Source: a virus. Taken from it: a stretch of 25,569 nucleotides of DNA. Under the pieces are notes generated by a model. It searched no databases, had not been told where the DNA came from, and worked only from the letters and a program-made list of their open reading frames with translations. Where the stretch lies: IMG/VR virus record IMGVR_UViG_3300045922_000092, positions 1-25,569 of that record; one strand, given 5' to 3'. Positions 3,464 through 25,569 of this stretch are shown here, one piece after another. Made by a program: the position numbers and the translations under genes. Every line of letters starts with the position of its first letter. Within the stretch, counting starts at the first letter, position 1.

Positions 3464-3492
3464 TGGTTATCCGATTATCGTATGCAGGTCAA
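3464..3492 (-). promoter_or_regulatory. Putative leftward early promoter
   Basis: On the minus strand TTGACC (3492-3487) resembles a sigma-70 -35 box. Candidate -10 boxes are TAACCA (3469-3464, 17-bp spacer) or GATAAC (3471-3466, 15-bp spacer); both are weak matches. An operator copy sits in the spacer, so a bound repressor would block polymerase. It lies just upstream of the leftward operon, whose first start is at 3434. Confidence 0.45.
3469..3483. promoter_or_regulatory. Operator copy 1 (core CGATTATCG)
   Basis: Contains the odd palindrome CGAT-T-ATCG at 3472-3480 with TAT on its right flank. It is identical in the 9-bp core to the copy at 3554-3568, and lies between the -35 and -10 candidates of the leftward promoter. 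Confidence 0.65.
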
Positions 3493-3493
3493 T

Positions 3494-3508
3494 ATACGAA
3501 AATCGAAC
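3494..3508. promoter_or_regulatory. Operator copy 2 (one core mismatch)
   Basis: ATACGAAAATCGAAC has core CGAAAATCG, one base off the palindrome CGATAATCG. Its centre is about 25 bp from copy 1 and 26 bp from the weak copy 3, close to two and a half helical turns. Confidence 0.55.
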
Positions 3509-3519
3509 AGGGCCGTCCT

Positions 3520-3534
3520 GCTTGGAAATCGAAT
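3520..3534. promoter_or_regulatory. Weak operator copy 3 (one good half-site)
   Basis: The right half AATCGAAT matches the operator half-site, while the left half is degenerate. It is included because its spacing continues that of copies 1 and 2. Confidence 0.3.
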
Positions 3535-3542
3535 AGGCGCGA

Positions 3543-3571
3543 TTGCCAAATATATTCGATTATCGTATTAA
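3543..3571 (+). promoter_or_regulatory. Putative rightward early promoter
   Basis: TTGCCA (3543-3548), a 17-bp spacer and TATTAA (3566-3571) make a good sigma-70 promoter. Transcription would start at about 3577-3580, on or next to the ATG of the Cro-like gene, which has no ribosome site, so the mRNA is predicted to be leaderless or nearly so. Operator copy 4 covers the spacer and half of the -10 box. Confidence 0.6.
3554..3568. promoter_or_regulatory. Operator copy 4 (core CGATTATCG)
   Basis: ATTCGATTATCGTAT is the most symmetric copy; its 9-bp core at 3557-3565 is identical to that of copy 1. It overlaps the rightward promoter, so binding should repress the Cro-like gene and everything downstream. 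Confidence 0.65.
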
Positions 3572-3579
3572 CGTGTCTC

Positions 3580-4852: not shown

Positions 4853-5013
4853 AGAAGCAGTATCGCATCGAGGCCCTGTATCAGTCGCGCATGGGCACGC
4901 AGGCATGGGTGATGTTCTCGCCCGAGACCTATGACACCAAGGGCGAGGCAAGCCGCGCCATGACCGCCATGCGCAAGACAGCGAAGCATCAACTTCGGGT
5001 GGCTGAGGCGTGA
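4849..5013 (+). CDS. Small hypothetical protein (54 aa)
   Basis: GTG at 4849 overlaps the resolvase stop by 4 bp (GTGA), and the frame ends at TGA 5011-5013, overlapping a GTG start of the helicase gene in the same way. The product starts MKKQYRIEALYQSRMGTQAW and continues with a short beta-hairpin-like start and a basic helix (residues 32-50). A purine-rich GGGGGAGGG precedes the start. The layout and coupling make it a credible gene, and it would otherwise leave a hole in a compact operon. No family recognised. Confidence 0.65.
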   Translation: MKKQYRIEALYQSRMGTQAWVMFSPETYDTKGEASRAMTAMRKTAKHQLRVAEA

Positions 5014-6725
5014 GTTCTGGGGGGGGAGATATGGGCGAGCCTTCCGTATCTCAACCGATACCGGACGACCCCGGCTATTGGGCCATCTATGCCGAGGAGG
5101 CGAATTATATCCCGGACGGCATCGGCGCCGGATTTGTCGACAGCCGGCCTCAGGCATTTGCTCCGGTCGGCCCGGCGCCGGTCGTGGAGTTGCTGCCCCA
5201 GCTCGTGACGGACGGGCTTATCAACCTGGAGGCCGAACAGGAGGTTTTGGGCGCCTTGCTTCAAGACAACAGCCTGTGGCGGCAGCATTGCGCCGGGCTG
5301 ACCTACGACGACTTCTCGGAGCCGCTGCATCAGCGCATCTATGCCGCTCTGGAAAGCAGAATCAGCACCGGGCATCCGGCGACGCCCATCACACTTTGGC
5401 CTATGTTCGCCAAGGACGAGGCCATGCAGGTGATGGGCGGGTTGGGATACCTTGCGCAATGCACCGGCAGTTTCACGGCTGTCATCGGCATCGCCGACAA
5501 TGTGCGGCACCTGAAAGACTTGGCCGACCGCAGAAGGCTCGCAGGCGTGGCACAATCGGTCGCCCAGGCGCTTGCCGAGCCCGATGGCGATATATCAGGG
5601 GCTCTTGCCCAGCTCGATGAGGCGCGCAAGCAGGTGGCCGCTGGCAACGCGCCTATGGCCACAGTCTGCATGGCCTCGCTGCACGAAGTCGAGGTCGCGC
5701 CGCGGCAATGGGTGGTCAAGCAATGGCTGCCCGCAAATGCCGTCACCTATCTCGGCGGGCCGGGCGGCGTAGGCAAGTCGCTGCTCGTGCAGCAATGGCT
5801 CACAGCGATAAGCCTGGGCGAGTCATGGATTGGCATGGAGACGCTGGCGCCGGTCCCCTGCCTCTATGTCACGTGCGAGGATGAGGCCGACGAGGTAGCG
5901 CGGCGCAATGCCGACATTGCCAAAGCTCTTGGCTATTCAATCCGCGCGCTGACCGACATGCATTGCATCAGCCTCGCTGGCGCGGAAGGCAACGAGCTGG
6001 GGACATTCGACGCCGAGCGGCGCTTCCGGCCCTCCGAGCGTTTCCACCGCATCGTTGCTGCCGCCAAGGCCCTCAGGGTGCGCGTGGTGGCGCTGGACAA
6101 CTTGGCGCACATGTTCACCGGAAACGAAAACGTGCGCGGCGAGGTGACGCAGTTTGTCAACCTGCTGTCCCGGCTGGCGCTGGAGATCGGCGGCGCAGTC
6201 ATCCTGCTCGGGCACCCGGCGAAGGTTGAGGGATCGGAGTATTCTGGATCCACGGCATGGGAAAACGCGGTCCGCAACCGGCTGTTCCTGGGGCGCCCGG
6301 AGGCCAAGGGCGAGGGCGATGATGTCAACCCGAACGCGCGCCACCTGAGCCGCAGCAAGTCCAATTATGCAGCGATCGGCGAGGGGGTGGATATGGTCTG
6401 GAGCAAGGGCGCGTTCATCCCAGCCTCTGAAGTTCCAGAGGATGAGGCGCCCATATTCGAGGCCGCAGGGCTGCACAATGAGCTGTTTCTGGAGCGGCTG
6501 GAACAGTGCGCAGCCAAGAAACGGGCCGTCTCGCACAATGTCCGGGCGAGCAATTATGCACCCCGGATATTCGCCAAAATGCCGGGCAAGAAGCGCGCGT
6601 CACAGGCTCAATTCGAGGCCGCTATGGAGCGTCTGCTGGCCATGGGGATGATCGTCCTCGACGCAGAAATGCCCTTCCGGGACAGCTCAAGACGGCCGGT
6701 TATTGGCATTGGGAAAGCACCATGA
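5010..6725 (+). CDS. Replicative helicase: DnaB N-terminal domain joined to RepA/AAA_25-type ATPase
   Basis: A 571-aa protein. Residues about 70-185 match a DnaB N-terminal domain (INLEAEQEVLGALLQDNSLW, then HQRIYAAL and GGLGYLAQ). Residues about 236-430 are a RecA-fold ATPase of the RepA/AAA_25 kind: Walker A GGPGGVGKS at 249-257, the CEDEADEVARRNADI block at 289-303, Walker B VVALDN with D363, and the sensor-like AVILLGHPAK at 395-404. The C-terminal ~100 residues look like a winged-helix-like tail. It probably unwinds DNA at the phage origin. The GTG at 5010 overlaps the upstream stop; an ATG at 5031 behind a G-rich purine run is the alternative and shortens it by 7 residues. It sits directly upstream of the iteron cluster. 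Confidence 0.8.
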   Translation: MSSGGGDMGEPSVSQPIPDDPGYWAIYAEEANYIPDGIGAGFVDSRPQAFAPVGPAPVVELLPQLVTDGLINLEAEQEVLGALLQDNSLWRQHCAGLTYDDFSEPLHQRIYAALESRISTGHPATPITLWPMFAKDEAMQVMGGLGYLAQCTGSFTAVIGIADNVRHLKDLADRRRLAGVAQSVAQALAEPDGDISGALAQLDEARKQVAAGNAPMATVCMASLHEVEVAPRQWVVKQWLPANAVTYLGGPGGVGKSLLVQQWLTAISLGESWIGMETLAPVPCLYVTCEDEADEVARRNADIAKALGYSIRALTDMHCISLAGAEGNELGTFDAERRFRPSERFHRIVAAAKALRVRVVALDNLAHMFTGNENVRGEVTQFVNLLSRLALEIGGAVILLGHPAKVEGSEYSGSTAWENAVRNRLFLGRPEAKGEGDDVNPNARHLSRSKSNYAAIGEGVDMVWSKGAFIPASEVPEDEAPIFEAAGLHNELFLERLEQCAAKKRAVSHNVRASNYAPRIFAKMPGKKRASQAQFEAAMERLLAMGMIVLDAEMPFRDSSRRPVIGIGKAP

Positions 6726-7039
6726 TGGTTATGGCCTTTCCCGTGTTTCTAACCAATCTGGATGCAGCACGGTGCTGCACGGTCGCGCTTGATATGCTTA
6801 AGTCATTGATTTTGCTGCTGCACGGTCTGCTGCACGGTCATGCTGCATCGTGCTGCATGGTCAACATAAGCCGCTGTAATTGCTGCTGCACGGTCTGCTG
6901 CACGGTGCTGCATGGTGCTGCACCGTCAGCTATCCCCCTAAAGGGGGATAACCCCTACCCCTTTGAGGGGCAGGGTTTACCCCCAGGGGGAATGGGGGCG
7001 CGCGTGAACCCGAAAATCAACGAGAGGAGACTGACATGA
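6722..7039 (+). CDS. Doubtful ORF (105 aa) spanning the iteron/inverted-repeat locus
   Basis: A frame from ATG 6722 overlaps the helicase stop by 4 bp (ATGA) and ends at TGA 7037-7039, overlapping the next ATG by 4 bp. This coupling looks gene-like. Against it, the product is cysteine-rich and disordered in type (RCCTV, SCCMV, CCCTVCCTV), and the repeated DNA is read in all three phases, so the repeats are not maintained for their peptide. Most likely it is non-coding origin DNA that happens to remain open. It could also act as a translated spacer that couples the downstream genes. Low confidence as a protein gene. Confidence 0.25.
   Translation: MMVMAFPVFLTNLDAARCCTVALDMLKSLILLLHGLLHGHAASCCMVNISRCNCCCTVCCTVLHGAAPSAIPLKGDNPYPFEGQGLPPGGMGARVNPKINERRLT
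6764..6927 (+). repeat. Cluster of nine 12-bp iterons, putative replication origin
   Basis: Copies of TGCTGCACGGTC and close variants start at 6773, 6816, 6828, 6841, 6851, 6884, 6896, 6906 and 6916. Those at 6773, 6816, 6828 and 6884 are exact over 12 bases and 6896 over 11; the others differ by a few bases. Start spacing is often 10-13 bp, so sites would face one side of the helix. At 6764-6778 one more inverted copy makes the palindrome GCAGCACGGTGCTGC. The array follows directly after the helicase gene, as in lambda-type and plasmid origins. The origin role is inferred. Confidence 0.6.
6931..6950. repeat. Perfect 20-bp palindrome
   Basis: TATCCCCCT, AA, AGGGGGATA: a 9-bp stem with a 2-base centre. 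It lies immediately after the last iteron, has no T-tract and is therefore more likely a protein-binding site or cruciform than a terminator. Confidence 0.7.
6953..6975. repeat. Imperfect GC-rich inverted repeat
   Basis: CCCT-A-CCCCT, loop TTG, AGGGG-C-AGGG: nine base pairs with one internal A/C mismatch. It is the second of three G/C-run hairpins next to the iterons. Confidence 0.55.
6980..6990. repeat. Short inverted repeat CCCCCAGGGGG
   Basis: Five C, one A, five G. Third G/C-run symmetry element in 60 bp, close to the end of the putative origin region. Confidence 0.5.
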
Positions 7040-7179
7040 AGCGACACCCGAACCACCTCGAAGGCTATTGCGACGGCATGGCCCAAAAACCCCCCCAGCA
7101 CAGGCCAAACGACCAGCCATACCAAGAGGGCTACCTCATGGGACAGGATGACCGCAGCCGCCTGGACGGCAAGGAATGA
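7036..7179 (+). CDS. Small hypothetical protein (47 aa), weakly Rmf/CrpP-like
   Basis: Starts MKRHPNHLEGYCDGMAQKPP and ends with a YQEGYLMGQDDRSRLDG segment. The two GY-x-x-G turns separated by a Pro-rich stretch faintly recall the small Rmf/CrpP group of ribosome-associated proteins, which have a GY..G ... W..G pattern. This similarity is weak and only by eye. The ATG at 7036 has a strong GAGAGGAGA site 6 bp upstream. The stop is 6 bp before the next gene. Confidence 0.6.
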   Translation: MKRHPNHLEGYCDGMAQKPPQHRPNDQPYQEGYLMGQDDRSRLDGKE

Positions 7180-7185
7180 GTCACA

Positions 7186-7680
7186 GTGGAGTGGTTCATC
7201 GTCCACGCCGTCGCCCAGCAGGCCCGCACAGTAAAGGGTGTGGCAGGCTGTCTCGGCGTCGACAGGCGCAAAGCAAGACGATGGCTCTCGCAAGCAGGCG
7301 TCGACAGGTCCGAATGGCCAACCCAACAAGAGATCGGCGCCCGATACTGGCAGCAATACCGCAAGGCCAGAGGCATCGAAGAGCCGCCCGCCTCAACCAT
7401 CGCAGCCGCCTCATCCATCGGGAGCGTCGCGCGACAATTCGGCTGCGGAAGGAAGCTCGTGGCAAGGCTGATGATGACGACCAGAACACCCAAACCCAAG
7501 CCAGACCCGCGCCTCAAAAGCGCCTTGAAATACCTCAGAGCAGCGGAAATGGTCGTCATCGACATGGGACCAGACTATGCCTGCCTCTACGAGGGCAGGC
7601 GCTACGTGCTAGGCCCTATCAGAATGACCATTGACGAGCTGCTGACCCGAGCGCAGCGAAACGGATGGAAAGGAGACTGA
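7186..7680 (+). CDS. Putative double helix-turn-helix DNA-binding protein (164 aa)
   Basis: Two helix-turn-helix-like segments are visible: residues about 16-39 (VKGVAGCLGVDRRKARRWLS, recognition helix DRRKARRWL) and 77-96 (IGSVARQFGCGRKLVARLM). A basic Pro/Lys linker (residues 98-110) leads to a C-terminal mixed domain with VVIDMGPDYACLYEGRRYVL. The start is GTG at 7186 with AAGGAA about 9 bp upstream. It is the last gene before the terminase genes, the position of many late-gene activators, and the first sizeable DNA-binding gene after the iterons. Either late regulator or origin-binding protein would fit; neither is shown. Confidence 0.6.
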   Translation: MEWFIVHAVAQQARTVKGVAGCLGVDRRKARRWLSQAGVDRSEWPTQQEIGARYWQQYRKARGIEEPPASTIAAASSIGSVARQFGCGRKLVARLMMTTRTPKPKPDPRLKSALKYLRAAEMVVIDMGPDYACLYEGRRYVLGPIRMTIDELLTRAQRNGWKGD

Positions 7681-7681
7681 C

Positions 7682-8131
7682 ATGCCAGGCACCCGCTTTA
7701 CCGACGCCGAGCGCAAGGATGCTACCGCCTACATCCTCGCCAAGCTCGCCACAGGCCAGAGCATCGAGAGAACACTCAAGGGCGAGCGCGACCCAGAAGC
7801 GCCGCGCCTGCCTCACATTTCAGTGTGGTGGCTGTGGGTGGCGAACGACACCAAGCTTTGCGACGACCTTGCGCGCGCGCGCGAACACGGGATCGAGGCG
7901 CATTTGGACGCTTGTATTGACATCGCCGACAACGCTGAGGAGGATCCCGCGCGCAGCCGTGTTCGCATCGACACCCGGATTAAGATGGCGCAGATGATGA
8001 AACCGAAAAAATATGGCGCGAAGCTGGACCTGACGAGCGGCGGCCAGAGCATCCCCGCCATGATGGAGGAGGCTCGCGCCCGCGCTGGGCTGCTGCCTCC
8101 GACTGACAAGCTGCCAGCCCCAGAAGAATGA
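7682..8131 (+). CDS. terS: Terminase small subunit
   Basis: A 149-aa protein that recognises phage DNA and recruits the large terminase. Residues about 7-65 form a helical DNA-binding region with a WWLWVANDTKLCDDLARARE helix. The C-terminal signature VRIDTRIKMAQMMKPKKYG followed by AKLDL (residues 94-116) is characteristic of Sf6-type small terminases. The ATG at 7682 lies behind AAAGGAGA. The gene is separated from the large subunit by three small genes, which is unusual because the two subunits are normally adjacent. Confidence 0.8.
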   Translation: MPGTRFTDAERKDATAYILAKLATGQSIERTLKGERDPEAPRLPHISVWWLWVANDTKLCDDLARAREHGIEAHLDACIDIADNAEEDPARSRVRIDTRIKMAQMMKPKKYGAKLDLTSGGQSIPAMMEEARARAGLLPPTDKLPAPEE

Positions 8132-8283
8132 CCCTGGTGCTGCTGGCCCGCATTGATGCGGCGGAGACGCTGACCGAGCGCGCGCTGGCGATGCATTTTC
8201 TGCTTGCCATGGCGGAAAACCTTACTTATAAGGCGTCATCAGCAACGGGGCAGCGCCCCACCGAAAGGGAGAAGAAAAAATGA
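8128..8283 (+). CDS. Small hypothetical protein (51 aa)
   Basis: The ATG at 8128 overlaps the small terminase stop by 4 bp (ATGA), and the TGA at 8281-8283 overlaps the next ATG by 4 bp. The product starts MTLVLLARIDAAETLTERAL; one amphipathic helix is followed by a basic Lys-rich end (REKKK). The purine run coding for that end is also the ribosome site for the following repeat-protein gene. No family seen. Perfect coupling on both sides supports a real gene. Confidence 0.55.
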   Translation: MTLVLLARIDAAETLTERALAMHFLLAMAENLTYKASSATGQRPTEREKKK

Positions 8284-9179
8284 ACATCAAAATCGCCGAG
8301 ATTAACGCGGTGGGCATGGCCGCCCTCACCGATTGGGTGCGGGATCGCGGCAACGGCGACCCGGTATTTGCCCAAGCCGCCGCTGCGGCCTTGGCTGCCC
8401 GGTTCGACGGCAGTGATGTCGATGCGGTCGGTTTTGCGGCCATCGAACTGGGCCGCTACCAGACCAAGAGCGGCCACCCAGAGATTTTCAACTTTGAGCA
8501 CGGTCAGCTCGACATTGTCGAGCTCGACGAGGACGGCGACGAAATCTCTAGGGCAGTATGGGGGGTTAGCACACAAAACGAGGCTCAGCTGTGGGCGGCC
8601 TATGAGGCCGCAATGAACCAAGCTTGTCAGGCATACGACGCCGCAAAAGGCCAGGCACAGGCGGCCTATGAGGCCGAGAGAACCAAGGCGTATGCGGCAT
8701 ACGACGCCGCAAGGGGCCGGGCACAGGCGGCATACGACGCCGAAAGGGACCAGGCCTGGGCGGCCTATACGTCCGAGAGGGACCAGGCGTGGGCGGCCTG
8801 TGAGGAAGAGATAAATCGGGCTCGCGCGGCCCACCTGGACGGCATCCGCGCAGAAATGGCCTATGGGGCCGAAAAGCGCCCGAAAGGCGAATTGTATGCG
8901 GCTTACCAAGACGCATTTGTCCGGGCTTTGGCGGCTTATAGAGCCGTGGAGCGTCCGGCGTATGCGGCCTTTGAGGCCGCAAGGGATACAGCGGCTGCGG
9001 CCGCTCAGTCCCAGATAGATCAGGCAGAACAGGTCTATGAGGCCGCAACCAACAAAGCTTGGGCGGCCTATGAGGCCGCAATGAACCAAGCTTGTCAGGC
9101 ATACGACGACCTGACAAGCCCGGCCTGGGCGGCCTATGAGGCCGAGAGGGACCAGGCGTTGGCGGCCGACGAGGACTAA
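8280..9179 (+). CDS. Hendecad (11-residue) repeat helical protein, unknown function (299 aa)
   Basis: Residues 1-100 form a unique, acidic alpha/beta-like domain (MNIKIAEINAVGMAALTDWV onward). From residue 103 to the end there are about 18 units of an 11-residue motif, roughly x-A-x-A-A-Y-E-A-x-x-x, for example QAWAAYTSERD, KAYAAYDAARG and PAYAAFEAARD, with a single 3-residue insertion near residue 200. Hendecad repeats form long, nearly straight amphipathic helices or right-handed coiled coils, as in LEA-type and some surface proteins. Small Ala and aromatic Tyr at fixed places suggest a helix bundle. It lies between the terminase genes, coupled on both sides. Not recognised as any known phage protein. 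Confidence 0.75.
   Translation: MNIKIAEINAVGMAALTDWVRDRGNGDPVFAQAAAAALAARFDGSDVDAVGFAAIELGRYQTKSGHPEIFNFEHGQLDIVELDEDGDEISRAVWGVSTQNEAQLWAAYEAAMNQACQAYDAAKGQAQAAYEAERTKAYAAYDAARGRAQAAYDAERDQAWAAYTSERDQAWAACEEEINRARAAHLDGIRAEMAYGAEKRPKGELYAAYQDAFVRALAAYRAVERPAYAAFEAARDTAAAAAQSQIDQAEQVYEAATNKAWAAYEAAMNQACQAYDDLTSPAWAAYEAERDQALAADED
8586..9176 (+). repeat. Array of 33-bp degenerate coding repeats, with a 49-bp exact duplication
   Basis: The hendecad units are encoded by about 18 tandem 33-bp repeats, many sharing GCGGCCTATGAGGCCG. The stretch 8592-8640 is repeated exactly at 9060-9108, which points to a recent duplication or recombination between repeats within the gene. Confidence 0.7.
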
Positions 9180-19670: not shown

Positions 19671-21391
19671 TGGTCCGCGTCCCTGCTGCCGAGAACCAAG
19701 TCGTCGTCCGCGACCTGCCTCAAAACAGGCTTGCGGCGCCGCGGAACAATGCCGGCGAGTTGCTTGGCATCGCAGCGCGCAGCTTCGGCCAGGACATCAT
19801 CAATGTCGCCATTGACATGGACCAAGTGGAGCAGATGGTCGAGACGGCCGGCGCCAAGCAGCTCGACCTTGAGTTCTCAGCCTTTGAGCGCGAGACCCTA
19901 TACAATCCCGAGACCGGCTTCATGAACATGCAGGGCGGGAACGCTCTGAACAATCGCAAGGCCACAGAGGACGCGCTTGCAAAGAAGCGGGCCGAAATCA
20001 TGGCTAAAGCCCGCAGCCCGCGCCAGCGGGCCATCTTGAGCGAAATCCTCGATAGGCGGCAGGAGACGGCGCTGTTGACCATGGCCCGCCACGCAGCGGG
20101 CGAGGGCCGCCGCTACGCCGACGACACAGGCAAGGCCCGCATTGCCAACGAAATCGAGAACGCCATTGCCAAGCGCGACGACCCCGACGGCCTGGGCGCC
20201 GCGCTCGACACAATCAAGGACGAAGTGGACGCATGGGCAGCTCGCAATGGTGCATCGCCAGAAGCCCGCGACATGGAGCGCAGGACGCAGCTTGGCAAGG
20301 CTCATGCCGGCATCGTGGACACGCTGGCCAATGACGACCCGGAAGTCGCGCAGGCGTGGCTGGAAGGGCACAAGGATGAGATGCTGACCGCCGAGTATGA
20401 AAAGCTGACCGATGGCCTAAAGCCGGCCGTCATCAAGCGCAAAGCCATGCGCATCGCCGACGAAGTGCGCGGCGTGGCAGCCTTGGGCGTCCGCAACATG
20501 CCGCGCGACGATGACCTCAACGCCCGGCTGGCTGCCGTCGACAAAATGAACCTCAACCCCGAATTGGAGGCGGCCGTGAAGCAGCAGGTGCGCAGCGGCG
20601 TCGCCCTCGACCAGCAGCTACTGAGCGACCAGCGCACTCGCGCCGCTGAAAGCGCCTGGGAACATGTCGAGGCCGGGCGCGCGGTGCCGCCCTCGCTCTT
20701 GGCGCAGGTCTCGCCGTCCGTCCGCCGAGCGCTCACCAGTGCCAGCGCGGAGAATGGAGGCTTCTCCAAGCGCAGCGACCCGACCGTGTGGAACAACGCA
20801 CTCGACATGGCCGCCTATGAGCCAGAGCGCTTTGCGCAGATTGACTTGAACGAAGTGCGCGGCGAGTTCAGCCGGTCTGAGTGGCAGAGGCTCATGGACA
20901 TGCAGCGTCAAATCAAAGCCGGCAAGGATCCCAAGGCGCTGCCCATGAGCAGGATTATCTCAGCCACGCGCGACATCGCCGAAGCTGCCGGGCTGACGAC
21001 GACCGGCAAGAAGGGCAAAACCCGCGAAGCCGCCGCCGAGCGGATTTCCGCCTTCCGAGACGCGCTGCGAGCCGATGTCGAGACCTATACCTCCAGCAAC
21101 AATGGTTCGCTGCCTGATGATGACACGGTGCGCGACATGGCCCGGCGTCAACTGACCAAGCTCCAAGTGTGGGACGATGAGGCGCTGGTGTTTCGAGACC
21201 AAGGTAAGATGCTGTATTTTGAGCGCGGCAAGCGAAAGCCGGGCACGGAGCTGCGCTTCAATCCCGACGATGTGGCCGTTCCCGACCGATTCCGAGACCG
21301 CTACACTCAGAGGTATCGTGAATTGAACGGGGGCCGGCTTCCGCCAGAAGGCGACCTCGTGCGCGCATGGCTGGCAATAGGGAACCGCTGA
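19670..21391 (+). CDS. Large helical internal virion protein (gp15-like position)
   Basis: A 573-aa, almost entirely helical, charged protein starting MVRVPAAENQVVVRDLPQNR. Heptad-like and Ala/Arg/Asp/Glu-rich stretches fill residues 70-340 (for example GQDIINVAIDMDQVEQMVET). No catalytic motif is visible. It follows the gp14-like gene and precedes the giant protein gene, the T7 gp15 position, and long helical ejection proteins are typical there. The start shares one base with the upstream stop (TGATG), as does its own stop with the next start. The role is inferred mainly from order and composition. Confidence 0.7.
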   Translation: MVRVPAAENQVVVRDLPQNRLAAPRNNAGELLGIAARSFGQDIINVAIDMDQVEQMVETAGAKQLDLEFSAFERETLYNPETGFMNMQGGNALNNRKATEDALAKKRAEIMAKARSPRQRAILSEILDRRQETALLTMARHAAGEGRRYADDTGKARIANEIENAIAKRDDPDGLGAALDTIKDEVDAWAARNGASPEARDMERRTQLGKAHAGIVDTLANDDPEVAQAWLEGHKDEMLTAEYEKLTDGLKPAVIKRKAMRIADEVRGVAALGVRNMPRDDDLNARLAAVDKMNLNPELEAAVKQQVRSGVALDQQLLSDQRTRAAESAWEHVEAGRAVPPSLLAQVSPSVRRALTSASAENGGFSKRSDPTVWNNALDMAAYEPERFAQIDLNEVRGEFSRSEWQRLMDMQRQIKAGKDPKALPMSRIISATRDIAEAAGLTTTGKKGKTREAAAERISAFRDALRADVETYTSSNNGSLPDDDTVRDMARRQLTKLQVWDDEALVFRDQGKMLYFERGKRKPGTELRFNPDDVAVPDRFRDRYTQRYRELNGGRLPPEGDLVRAWLAIGNR

Positions 21392-24300
21392 TGACCAACC
21401 CATTCCGCGACTATGCAGCGCCCAACCGGCGCGCTGTGGCCAATGACGACGAGGATGAAATCAGCCGCTACATCCGGGAGACTAGCCGCGTCCGGTCTGG
21501 AACAGCACAAGAAGCCGCTCAAGCCATGCAGCCCGAGAAGGTGGCCAAGGCCAACCAGATCGCGCGCCAGACTGGACTTCCGCCCGAGGCTGTCGATGCC
21601 AATGTCGACGACGCCTATCGCAAGCAACTGGCCGCCGTAAACCGCGCCATCACCTTCGAGAGACCCGCCCTGCGCGAATGGGCCAGCGACCCGCGCAATG
21701 CGGCAATTTCGCAGGACGACATGGCCAACCTCGCCAGGCTGGGTGACAAGATTGAGCGCGGGCCGCAGCCGAAGCCAAAGGATGAAGATGAAGGCCTGTT
21801 CGGCAAGGAAGGCTTTGGCGCCTTCGCTCGCAACTTCGTGCCGGAAATCGGCCGGGCGCTGGCCGGCGGCATGATGAGGGGAGGCGCAGACATCTACGAC
21901 TTCCTCGCCGCGACCGCCGAAGTCCGCGACCCGATCAACCTCATGCTTGACCAGGTGCTGCGCGGGGGCAAGCCTCAGGACTGGCGCGGCCAGGTCGCCG
22001 GCAGCATTCGCACGAACCTTGCCGACCCGGCCCGCGAAGCGGCCAAAGCCATGCAGCCGACTGGCCGCGGTTATGTCGGCGACGCGCTTCTGTCCGGCGT
22101 TTCCAGCATCCCTCAGTCGGTCATCGTGGCAGGAACGGCGGCCTTTGGTGGTCCCGTAGGCGGTGCGGCCGCGCTGGCAACCTTGTTCGGCGCTCCCACG
22201 GCTGGCGCCAATTACCGCGAGGCGCGAGATGCCGGCCTCGATCCCGGCGATGCGGCCCTCTACGGCGCGCGGCAGGCGTCCGTGGAAGTGATGATGGAGT
22301 CTATGCCAATGGCCTTCGCCGCCTCGGCTTTCGGCAAGAGCGGCTTTGGGCAGTTCATGGCGGGCTATCTCGGGCGCGAGCTTCCGACCGAGCTGGTGAC
22401 GGAAACCCTGCAATCCTTCGATGAGGCGGTGACGATCAACCCCGAAAAACCGCTGTCCGAGTGGTGGGCAAGCCTGCCTGCCCGGCTGGGCCAGACCGCG
22501 ATTGCCACGCTGTCCACCACCGGAGGCATCGCCGCCACGTCCGAGGCGGTGCGGGTGACGATTGAGCAGGTGGACAAACGCCGCACTCTAAAGCAGGCCG
22601 AGGTTGACGCGGAGTATCTGACCGACCTCGCCAACGGCATTGCCGAGACCAAGACCTACAAGCGCGACCCCAGTGCTGTTGCAAAATACCTTGGCCAGCA
22701 GCTCTCCGCGACAGGCTCTGATACCACCTATATCAACGCCGAGGCGCTGCGGACGTTCTACCAAGCGCAGGGCCTTGACCCTTTGAGCGGGCAAGACCCG
22801 TTCTTTGCGTGGATGGACAATTTCAGGGAGCAGATGGAGCAGGCGATGACCGTGGGCGGCGAGATCGCTGTCCCCACCGCCGAGCTTTTGACCCGGTTCG
22901 GCAAGACGCCGATGTGGGAAGCCATCAAGAACGACATCCGCCTGACGCCTGACGGCGAGTCCGTAAACGAGGCCCGCGCCCGCATCAGCAACGACGAGGC
23001 CCGCGCGCAGTTTCTGGGCGCCGAGGTCGCGCAGCGGGTGGCGAAGCGCAAGGCAGACGCCGCACAGGCCAAGACCATCTATAGCGAAGTCTCGCGCATC
23101 CTGTCTGGCGCCGGCATGACCGGGGACCAGTTGAAGGTGAACGCGGCGCTCTGGTCGCAGCGAGCCATGGCGCGCGGGCAGCAGCTCGGAGTGGACCCGC
23201 TTGCCTTGTTCCTCAGCGAGAACGTGCGGGTGGAGCGCGACTTGGGCGACGGGGTGACAATAGCCGCACAACCCGCACCAACAGCCACAACCGAGACGCC
23301 AACAGATACAACCGAGACACCAACAGATACAACCGAGACAGAGGCCGCCATTGGGCCGGATAATGCGACCGAGATTGAGCGGCTGGCACGGCGCTATGCC
23401 GCCATCCTGATTGATCGTCACGGCGATTCCACCATGCGCAAAGACGTATCTGACTGGCATCGGCGCTTTGCCGCCGCCATCGTCGAGCGCCGCGCAGCCG
23501 ATCTCAGTCTGGCTTGGGGTAACAATCCGGCCGCCCGCCAGCTTTTTGAGGAATCGACGGGCGTGAAACTGCCTCGCGGTCAGGCGGCAACGCGCAAGGC
23601 CATCTACGAATGGGCAGGCGCCGATTTGGAGGCGGACAAGGCAAAAGAGGACAACGACAGGGCCATTGAAGCCGCAATTGCCAAGCGGAACATGGCAGCC
23701 GGTGCCGCAGAGCGCGCGAAAATCAAACTGGACGACGTGACCATGACTGCGCGCGAGTTCGTTGACATGCAAATGGCGGCCGGCTTTGTCGTCGAGAAGC
23801 TGCGCGACGGCAAATTCTATCTCGTGAACCACCAGACTGAGCAGGCTTATCCTCTGTCTCAAAAGGGCCTCAAAGAGATGGGCGACTATGCCCACGCTGT
23901 CCAAAAGCTGCGCGACTTGCAGGGCGAACAGCCTGCTGAAAGCGCATCAACGCCGGCACAAGCCGAGACTGCCAAGACAGACAAGCTGGCGAGCGCAAAT
24001 GCTCTTGCCGACGCGATTGCTGCCGAAGGTGAGGAAGCGGAAGCCGAGGACGTGCGAGATCGAGCCAAAGCGCTCTATGGCAAAAAGCCCGCAGGCCCGG
24101 ACCTGTCCAAGGTCACAATCGTCAGCCAGGAGCGACTGGAGGAGGCGTCCAAGATCATCGACGACTTCTTCCGCACCCTCGACCAAGGGCCTGTGACGGA
24201 TCCCGACGAGGACGGCCGGGTGTTCTACCAGACAGCCATCCCGCCGCAGGTGATGACGGCCATCATCGACGTGACGCTCGGCTACATCGAGGCCGGGCCG

Positions 24301-25569
24301 CGCGACTTCAACAGCTATGAGCAGATGATGGTGGGGCGGTTCGGGCCGAAAGTCCGCGCCTTCCTGCCGAGCGCCTATGAGGCGGCGCGCTATTTCCCCG
24401 GCATGGACGCCTATGCGGGCGACATGACGCCGCGCGAGGAATACATGAACCAGCCTGTTGGCACCCCGCCCGCGGCGCCAGAGCCAGCGCCAGCGCCCGT
24501 CGAGAAGGCGGAAGCCGCGTCTGAGCCCGAGCGCCTGAACGCGGCCGACACCGAGCGCGAGACCCTGATTGCCGACTTCTACAACAGCCTCGCCAATGGC
24601 CGCGCCTATGACACGATCGTCAAGGCGCGCAAGCAAGCCTCTGAGGTGCTGGGCCGAAAGATTGAGGGCGGCACAGTCGACGCAAAGATGGTCGAGGAGG
24701 CCATGGAGGCGGCTGTCGTGCTGCTGGCACGAGGCTATGTCGCTGAGGGACGCGCTGACCCGGTGGCAACCTACAGGCGCCTTGTGGACCTCTACAGTCG
24801 GCAACCCCGGCTTGCGACCCGCACCAGCACCAGCATGGAGCAACAAGCCTATTCGACGCCAGTTCCGCTGGCCTGGCTGGCATCAGTGCGCGCTGGCATC
24901 ACGCCAGACTCCACCGTCTACGAGCCAACTGCCGGCCATGGCGCGTTGCTGATCGGCGCGACTGGCAGCAACGTTGAGGCGAACGAGCTGAACCCCGAAC
25001 GCTTCGAGACGCTGCGCACGACAGTGCCCGGCATCAAGAAGATTTCCAACGTGAACGCCGCCGGCTACATGCCGGTTTCGCGCGTTGAGCGGGTGATCGC
25101 CAATCCGCCATTCGGCACGGTGAAAGATGAGAACGGAGAGACCGTCAGCTTCTACATCCCGGCCGCCGGCTGGACGACGACGCAGATCGACCATGCCATC
25201 GCCTTTCAGGCATTGCAGGCGATGGAGCAGGGCGGGCGCGCGGTCCTGATCGTGGGCGGGGTGAACAAGCAGGCGTCGAGTCGCGAGCAGCGCTCGGACG
25301 CCTACAATGCCAAGGACAAGCGGGAGTTCTATTACCACCTTTATCGGCACTACAACGTCACGGACCACTTCACCGTGGCCGGCGAGCTTTACGAGCGGCA
25401 AGGCGCGGGATGGCCTGTTGACGTGATTGTGATAGAAGGGCGCGGCAATTCGGCATTGCGACTGCCTGCGGCCAGCCCGCCGCGCCTCTATGAGACATGG
25501 GAGGCACTGGAAAATGCTTTCACCGACCGACCCGAAGCAGATGCTTACAAGGCTGCACGACCAGATTCT
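21391..25569 (+). CDS. Giant polyvalent internal virion protein with DarB-type adenine methyltransferase (3' end outside window)
   Basis: The frame is open from ATG 21391 to the last base: at least 1393 codons without a stop. The N-terminus (TNPFRDYAAPNRRAVANDDE, then RQTGLPPEAVDANV) and a Gly/Ala-rich possible membrane segment at about 231-275 fit an ejected internal virion protein. Low-complexity linkers (TETPTD repeats near 630-650; Pro/Ala near 1025-1045) separate modules. Residues about 1154-1320 form an N6-adenine methyltransferase: YSTPVPLAW, motif I YEPTAGHGALL (1177-1187), acidic ANELNPERF and motif IV NPPFG (1238-1242), then PVDVIVIEGRG. This run matches the phage P1 DarB antirestriction family, which usually carries a helicase domain further on. 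Its end lies beyond the window. Confidence 0.85.
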   Translation, partial: MTNPFRDYAAPNRRAVANDDEDEISRYIRETSRVRSGTAQEAAQAMQPEKVAKANQIARQTGLPPEAVDANVDDAYRKQLAAVNRAITFERPALREWASDPRNAAISQDDMANLARLGDKIERGPQPKPKDEDEGLFGKEGFGAFARNFVPEIGRALAGGMMRGGADIYDFLAATAEVRDPINLMLDQVLRGGKPQDWRGQVAGSIRTNLADPAREAAKAMQPTGRGYVGDALLSGVSSIPQSVIVAGTAAFGGPVGGAAALATLFGAPTAGANYREARDAGLDPGDAALYGARQASVEVMMESMPMAFAASAFGKSGFGQFMAGYLGRELPTELVTETLQSFDEAVTINPEKPLSEWWASLPARLGQTAIATLSTTGGIAATSEAVRVTIEQVDKRRTLKQAEVDAEYLTDLANGIAETKTYKRDPSAVAKYLGQQLSATGSDTTYINAEALRTFYQAQGLDPLSGQDPFFAWMDNFREQMEQAMTVGGEIAVPTAELLTRFGKTPMWEAIKNDIRLTPDGESVNEARARISNDEARAQFLGAEVAQRVAKRKADAAQAKTIYSEVSRILSGAGMTGDQLKVNAALWSQRAMARGQQLGVDPLALFLSENVRVERDLGDGVTIAAQPAPTATTETPTDTTETPTDTTETEAAIGPDNATEIERLARRYAAILIDRHGDSTMRKDVSDWHRRFAAAIVERRAADLSLAWGNNPAARQLFEESTGVKLPRGQAATRKAIYEWAGADLEADKAKEDNDRAIEAAIAKRNMAAGAAERAKIKLDDVTMTAREFVDMQMAAGFVVEKLRDGKFYLVNHQTEQAYPLSQKGLKEMGDYAHAVQKLRDLQGEQPAESASTPAQAETAKTDKLASANALADAIAAEGEEAEAEDVRDRAKALYGKKPAGPDLSKVTIVSQERLEEASKIIDDFFRTLDQGPVTDPDEDGRVFYQTAIPPQVMTAIIDVTLGYIEAGPRDFNSYEQMMVGRFGPKVRAFLPSAYEAARYFPGMDAYAGDMTPREEYMNQPVGTPPAAPEPAPAPVEKAEAASEPERLNAADTERETLIADFYNSLANGRAYDTIVKARKQASEVLGRKIEGGTVDAKMVEEAMEAAVVLLARGYVAEGRADPVATYRRLVDLYSRQPRLATRTSTSMEQQAYSTPVPLAWLASVRAGITPDSTVYEPTAGHGALLIGATGSNVEANELNPERFETLRTTVPGIKKISNVNAAGYMPVSRVERVIANPPFGTVKDENGETVSFYIPAAGWTTTQIDHAIAFQALQAMEQGGRAVLIVGGVNKQASSREQRSDAYNAKDKREFYYHLYRHYNVTDHFTVAGELYERQGAGWPVDVIVIEGRGNSALRLPAASPPRLYETWEALENAFTDRPEADAYKAARPDS
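23287..23340 (+). repeat. 21-bp tandem repeats encoding TTETPTD linker
   Basis: Two and a half copies of ACAACCGAGAC(A/G)CCAACAGAT encode TTETPTD-TTETPTD-TTET. ACA-rich codons differ from the surrounding GC-rich usage. It looks like a flexible, length-variable linker between modules of the giant protein. Confidence 0.7.

Follow-up and report, generated by a model that had tools for sequence, protein, structure and literature searches.

Ten head-to-tail copies of an 11-bp unit, TGCTGCAYGGT, each with 0-2 mismatches, lie at 6763-6926 of a phage genome record, and the first of them begins 37 bp 3' of the end of a helicase gene. The array is probably a self-contained replication origin, served by a helicase with a built-in domain for origin recognition; both binding and origin activity are inferences, and no experiment supports them as yet. 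The window studied here is the whole IMG/VR virus record IMGVR_UViG_3300045922_000092 (25,569 bp). A first-pass annotation of this DNA had proposed a probable replication origin at the same place, and the proposal now gains support from conservation among relatives and from covariation of the repeats with a winged helix of the helicase. Apart from a few model phages, replication origins of phages have seldom been identified. Because this family of RepA-type helicases marks the origin by position and pattern, the origin becomes predictable in dozens of uncultured phages and prophages.

The repeat array and the helicase gene before it

The features discussed herein are as follows.

5010..6725, + strand: helicase gene, 571 aa, with DnaB_N (72-169), a RepA-like AAA_25/RecA core (~227-470) and a C-terminal winged helix (~481-571); from Pfam, PDB sequence matches, an AF2 model and a fold match
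6450..6722, + strand: winged-helix coding region, proposed reader of the repeats; from the AF2 model, structural matches and unit covariation
6763..6783, + strand: iteron group 1, two matches to the unit TGCTGCACGGT (starts 6763, 6773)
6799..6811, + strand: IHF-consensus element TAAGTCATTGATT (YAANNNNTTGATW); exact match, enriched in related arrays
6816..6861, + strand: iteron group 2, four unit matches (starts 6816, 6828, 6841, 6851)
6867..6880, + strand: degenerate second copy of the spacer element (TAAGCCGCTGTAAT), from sequence
6884..6926, + strand: iteron group 3, four unit matches (starts 6884, 6896, 6906, 6916)
6931..6950, + strand: conserved hairpin TATCCCCC-TAAA-GGGGGATA, stem of 8, TAAA loop; relatives have the same position and loop class with other stems
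6952..6990, + strand: two further inverted repeats, 6952-6975 and 6980-6990 (CCCCCAGGGGG), from sequence

All ten units are on the + strand and fall into three groups (two, four and four units), with a spacing of 10-13 bp inside the groups and spacers of ~32 and ~22 bp between them. The first-pass annotation had described nine units of 12 bp. The array is real, but it holds one unit more, and the conserved core is 11 bp, usually followed by C or G as a 12th base; the 12-mer TGCTGCACGGTC occurs in four exact copies. The 10-13 bp phasing given there is borne out inside the groups, and the three inverted repeats it placed after the array are all present. No other short-repeat cluster in the record is as strong as the array: the helicase end has a repeat score of 16, compared with at most 10 elsewhere (145 windows of the record) and at most 7 in shuffles. 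Moreover, a pattern of two adjacent units has 2 matches in the window versus 0.01 expected from shuffles. Several direct repeats in the same orientation at near-helical spacing are one criterion for an iteron origin, and the ten units satisfy it.

A search of viral contigs with the unit pattern TGCTGCACGGTCTGCTGCACGGT and a nucleotide search of named phages with the array region gave no match, and Rfam found only a chance match in the region. Cumulative GC skew, a check suggested in the first-pass annotation, has no clear extreme at the array and therefore lends no support to an origin. The AT skew rises from ~0 (6001-7000) to +0.32 (7001-8000) just after the array, which may reflect a change of gene class.

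Repeats behind an open reading frame could also be coding or chance repeats, with the array encoding a repetitive C-terminal tail of the helicase. The helicase frame does stay open through the array in about half of the relatives, but a stop precedes the array in the window and in the other half, the 10-13 bp spacings break the frame, and the repeat score lies far above that of shuffles. The coding-tail reading is already contradicted for the window, and coding or chance repeats can practically be ruled out as an explanation.

Pfam recognizes a DnaB N-terminal domain and AAA_25 in the helicase. A PDB sequence search matched the core to RSF1010 RepA (1g8y, E 1.5e-5), and the best PDB fold matches of the AF2 model are likewise RSF1010 RepA (1nlf, 1g8y, 1olo). 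The criterion of a RepA-type hexameric helicase is thus met by sequence and fold match, the hexamer itself not being shown. The last 90 residues are predicted to form a winged helix (pLDDT 90.9, AF2). Foldseek alone gave only weak matches to this domain (E above 0.1), and a structural aligner gave Z 8.3 with SAMD1 and Z 7.6 with KAT6A WH-DNA; Z values of 7-8 support the predicted winged-helix fold class without implying a relationship. The model has low confidence in its N-terminal part, which was not interpreted structurally. Among relatives this part varies (a CHC2/Toprim primase in L002, a Toprim-like domain in WO phage RepA, none in short forms), and the core and winged helix are retained.

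Arrays in related loci and their covariation with the winged helix

Protein searches yielded ~40 loci in viral contigs, Sphingomonadales genomes, an Azospirillum megaplasmid and Wolbachia phage WO. In nearly all of them the 3' end of the helicase gene has an array with units of 9-11 bp, almost always oriented with the gene. With clusters in 38 loci scored independently of unit sequence, the window at the helicase end was the best repeat cluster in 34, against ~0.8 expected. A fresh set of 25 prophage loci was obtained by an HMM profile search of 398 genomes of one bacterial order, 3 of the 25 being misplaced or weak matches; here the helicase-end window ranked strictly top in 14, and a cluster was visible by eye in ~21. 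Arrays were weak or displaced in L011, L016 (by fixed window), L039, L126 and L128. Loss of the repeats in relatives that keep the helicase, which the first-pass annotation had named as a refutation of the origin, was the opposite of what was found: position, spacing, orientation and accompanying elements are all kept. What is not kept is the unit sequence. Units vary widely among loci, for example TGCGGAAGT, TGCGGGACGGT (the unit of L014), GCACCGACC, CCGGTGACC, CGCACAAC, GCGCTGAC, CCGGAAACC, CTACGGACA, AAGTTGGCA and, in L006, GCACCAACC, and across ~60 related loci in all the unit changes between phages in step with the winged helix of the helicase.

In Wolbachia phage WO, AAGTTGGCA/AAGATGGCA repeats lie behind RepA (L046:4235-4443). 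The word "iteron" is absent from a WO genomics paper, and these repeats may be an unrecognised WO origin.

The genes behind the arrays differ from locus to locus, and include small and large terminases of several families, SSB, a head protease, and a tape measure gene with an endolysin. This diversity bears on the reading that the repeats are a packaging site, that is, cosB- or pac-like sites for the small terminase subunit. An Sf6-like small terminase gene is indeed located at 7682-8131, ~1 kb downstream of the array, terminases lie within 2 kb in several relatives, and lambda cosB, likewise a set of repeats in a phage genome, combines them with an IHF site, a motif also present here. But lambda cosB goes with terminase, and the constant terminase association expected of a lambda-type cosB/pac site fails: in phages whose terminases are of different types, the array still comes after the helicase; the late genes that come next encode head protease/major head in L036 and L045 and tape measure/endolysin in L017; and in WO, where the array lies after repA, the sequence read has no annotated terminase. 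The units, moreover, track the winged helix of the helicase instead. Since the array goes with the helicase while the flanking late genes differ, a packaging site is very unlikely.

The arrays also sit between early and late genes, as would suit an operator array through which a repressor or activator controls the downstream genes or the helicase; the protein encoded at 7186-7680 has a weak HTH match, and the winged helix itself could be autoregulatory. Against this, the array is behind the helicase gene and not before it, no promoter-like site was found in 6500-7300, none of the related loci encodes a homologue of the HTH protein, and the array stays while the downstream genes vary widely. 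An operator is thus quite improbable.

If the helicase reads its own origin, changes in the unit are expected to accompany changes in the DNA-binding domain rather than in the motor. For loci below 85% core identity, partial Mantel tests were run once with all loci and once without the most divergent groups. The correlation of unit with winged helix, given the core, was 0.53 and 0.46 (p 0.0002), and that of unit with core, given the winged helix, was 0.26 (p 0.001) and 0.10 (p 0.12). In the fresh prophage set (20 loci), the unit correlated at 0.41 with the winged helix (p 0.0002) and at 0.02 with the core (p 0.39). A sliding window over the protein placed the peak of covariation at residues 499-518 (KKRAVSHNVRASNYAPRIFA); covariation rises again at 539-558. 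For example, L006 and L007, which share 80% of the core but 56% of the winged helix, have different units. As judged from these sequence comparisons, unit similarity follows the winged helix and far less the ATPase core; the tests reduce the effect of shared ancestry without fully removing it. By eye, proteins with SRT[YF]AP pair with units CGCTGAC (L019, L032-L034, L112, L115), and proteins with GPNYAP pair with CGCACAAC or CCCGAAC (L013, L043, L104, L120, L121, L124). Such pairing of motifs and units is post hoc, and is a lead rather than a test. Matched pairs of winged helix and repeat form a data set on joint change of initiator and origin specificity, which domain swaps can test.

An initiator should have a domain that reads the repeats; here the winged helix is predicted and the unit covaries with it, binding itself not being shown. 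This gap leaves room for an origin whose repeats are read by another protein, either a separate phage initiator or a host factor, with the winged helix contacting other partners only. RSF1010 iterons are read in this way by the separate RepC (PMC4234260), and core similarity does keep some correlation with the unit in the full set. Yet it is in the winged helix that covariation is highest, no separate initiator gene common to the loci was seen, and host factors would not explain why units change between prophages of one bacterial order. We therefore regard a separate reader as unlikely, and favor the helicase as the reader of its own repeats.

Spacer element and hairpin

The sole exact match to the IHF consensus in the window is the one inside the array, and IHF binding to it is not shown. 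It falls within 6789-6813, where 19 of 25 positions are A+T, among the most AT-rich 25-bp stretches of the window; no 13-mer array of the unwinding-element type was found in this spacer. A similar element recurs: many related arrays have YAAGTCATTGAWW between iteron groups, which contains the IHF consensus YAANNNNTTGATW, the reverse of WATCAANNNNTTR. There are 12 occurrences of YAANNNNTTGATW in arrays versus 7 outside in 40 times as much DNA. IHF is well known in origins (PMC4980987). It does not explain the GTCA that is fixed within the variable part of its consensus. As the element is missing from compact arrays and is enriched only ~4-fold in the fresh set, it cannot be essential in all. 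Spacers with another shared motif, CCGCAGAAA..TGCGGAAAACGAG, in place of the IHF-like element were seen at L018:2259-2460, L021:4090-4290 and L022:1335-1535, and remain unidentified.

No DnaA box was found in the array, which counts against an origin, though some iteron origins do without such boxes; a near-match lies at 6554, and the four near-matches of the window do not exceed chance level.

An IMG/VR search with the spacer element and TTGCGG, blind to protein, gave 52 matches, among which were ~13 independent arrays. Ten of these were directly behind a helicase of the AAA_25/RepA kind. Two arrays with the same spacer element (L049:2415-2600 and L064) have small genes upstream and no helicase found nearby, and in L051 a cytosine methylase gene lies between the helicase and the array; these three are possible origins separated from their own initiator. 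A pattern for GCAC-type units plus the spacer element was discarded, having found one contig (L100) without an array.

The hairpin that follows the array recurs as well. A hairpin with a stem of at least 5 and a loop of TAC, TAAA, TATA or similar was found in 50 of 56 loci, compared with 1.7% of random windows. The loop set was picked after looking, and the random windows were scored with the same set. Because pairing was a selection criterion, what is informative is the excess over random, the fixed place and the small number of loop sequences. The stems have many different base pairs per position across loci, while loop and place are constant; a fixed loop on a free stem points to a structural rather than a sequence signal near the start site. 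The hairpin is not an ordinary intrinsic terminator, since it has no T-run and a terminator scan found none. The two inverted repeats next to it can also fold jointly with it.

A mechanism can be proposed in which the origin immediately follows the gene for the helicase that initiates at it; the C-terminal winged helix of this helicase would bind the 11-bp repeats. Paired and grouped sites, together with a bend between groups (by IHF, the use of which is inferred, or at an AT-rich weak spot), would gather several helicase subunits, so that a ring might load and the nearby DNA be opened. The hairpin, forming once its strand is single, may then mark a start or priming point. Binding, loading and the role of the hairpin in this scheme are all inferences.

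Comparison with known origins

Lambda ori, the parallel offered in the first-pass annotation, is only a loose one; in lambda the origin is located within gene O. In function, SaPI Rep/ori and phage P4 alpha come closer. SaPI Rep and SCC Cch2 bind, through a C-terminal domain, iterons directly downstream of their own gene (PMC7581432). SaPI Rep/ori and SCC Cch/Cch2 thus share the layout described here, a C-terminal reader with iterons just downstream of the helicase gene, and the window array meets this positional criterion. On the contrary, the helicase type is not met: SaPI Rep and Cch/Cch2 are DUF927 or Primase_Cterm helicases in other hosts, whereas Pfam gives DnaB_N and AAA_25 for the window protein, whose family is AAA_25 RepA/RecA-like with DnaB_N or primase N-termini.

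The helicase of P4 alpha is of the SF3 type and so differs from the AAA_25/RepA-type core of the window. P4 alpha likewise unites, in one polypeptide, a helicase and a winged helix through which it binds origin repeats (PMC4234260). It also has a primase, as do relatives L002-L005 with their CHC2/Toprim domain, whereas the window protein has DnaB_N and no primase; the P4 alpha combination of winged helix, primase and SF3-type helicase is absent from it. No second repeat region comparable to P4 crr was seen in the window. Failing both helicase types, the window helicase works like SaPI Rep and P4 alpha and belongs to neither.

At RSF1010 oriV, hairpins ssiA and ssiB are exposed for priming, in addition to the iterons read by RepC (PMC4234260). 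The window shares with oriV a RepA-type helicase, iterons and small hairpins comparable to ssiA/ssiB, and by inference the hairpin after the array may play the role of an ssi site. It differs in that the winged helix is fused to the helicase whereas RepC is separate, and in that its units are shorter and more numerous; no RepC or RepB' is present among the annotated genes, which were not searched directly for them. The window family looks like RepA with a fused reader.

For us it is an even question whether these loci represent an undescribed class of replicon in phages of Alphaproteobacteria. Such a class would combine an RSF1010-RepA-type helicase, fused to an origin-reading winged helix, with a three-part origin composed of fast-diverging iterons, an IHF-type bend element and a structure-conserved hairpin with a TAC/TAAA/TATA loop. 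Its dozens of domain-repeat pairs, matched by nature, could then be read as a recognition code, and the divergence may be driven by incompatibility between co-resident phages. Literature searches found no description of this helicase family with iterons, but most subscription journals were outside their coverage; such an absence is weak evidence, and the novelty is provisional.

Three further repeat regions of the record were observed. The stretch 3468-3576, which lies between minus-strand genes and a small HTH-like gene that starts just after it, carries an operator-like sequence, TATYCGATTATCGTAT, in two near-identical copies, a partial copy and an inverted copy. This arrangement resembles the immunity region of lambda-type phages and makes a temperate lifestyle probable. 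A tandem repeat with a period of 33/66 bp occupies 8594-8797 inside the gene at 8280-9179, and at 23276-23340, in a very long open frame (21367-25569), a 21-bp unit (CACCAACAGATACAACCGAGA) is repeated in tandem about three times.
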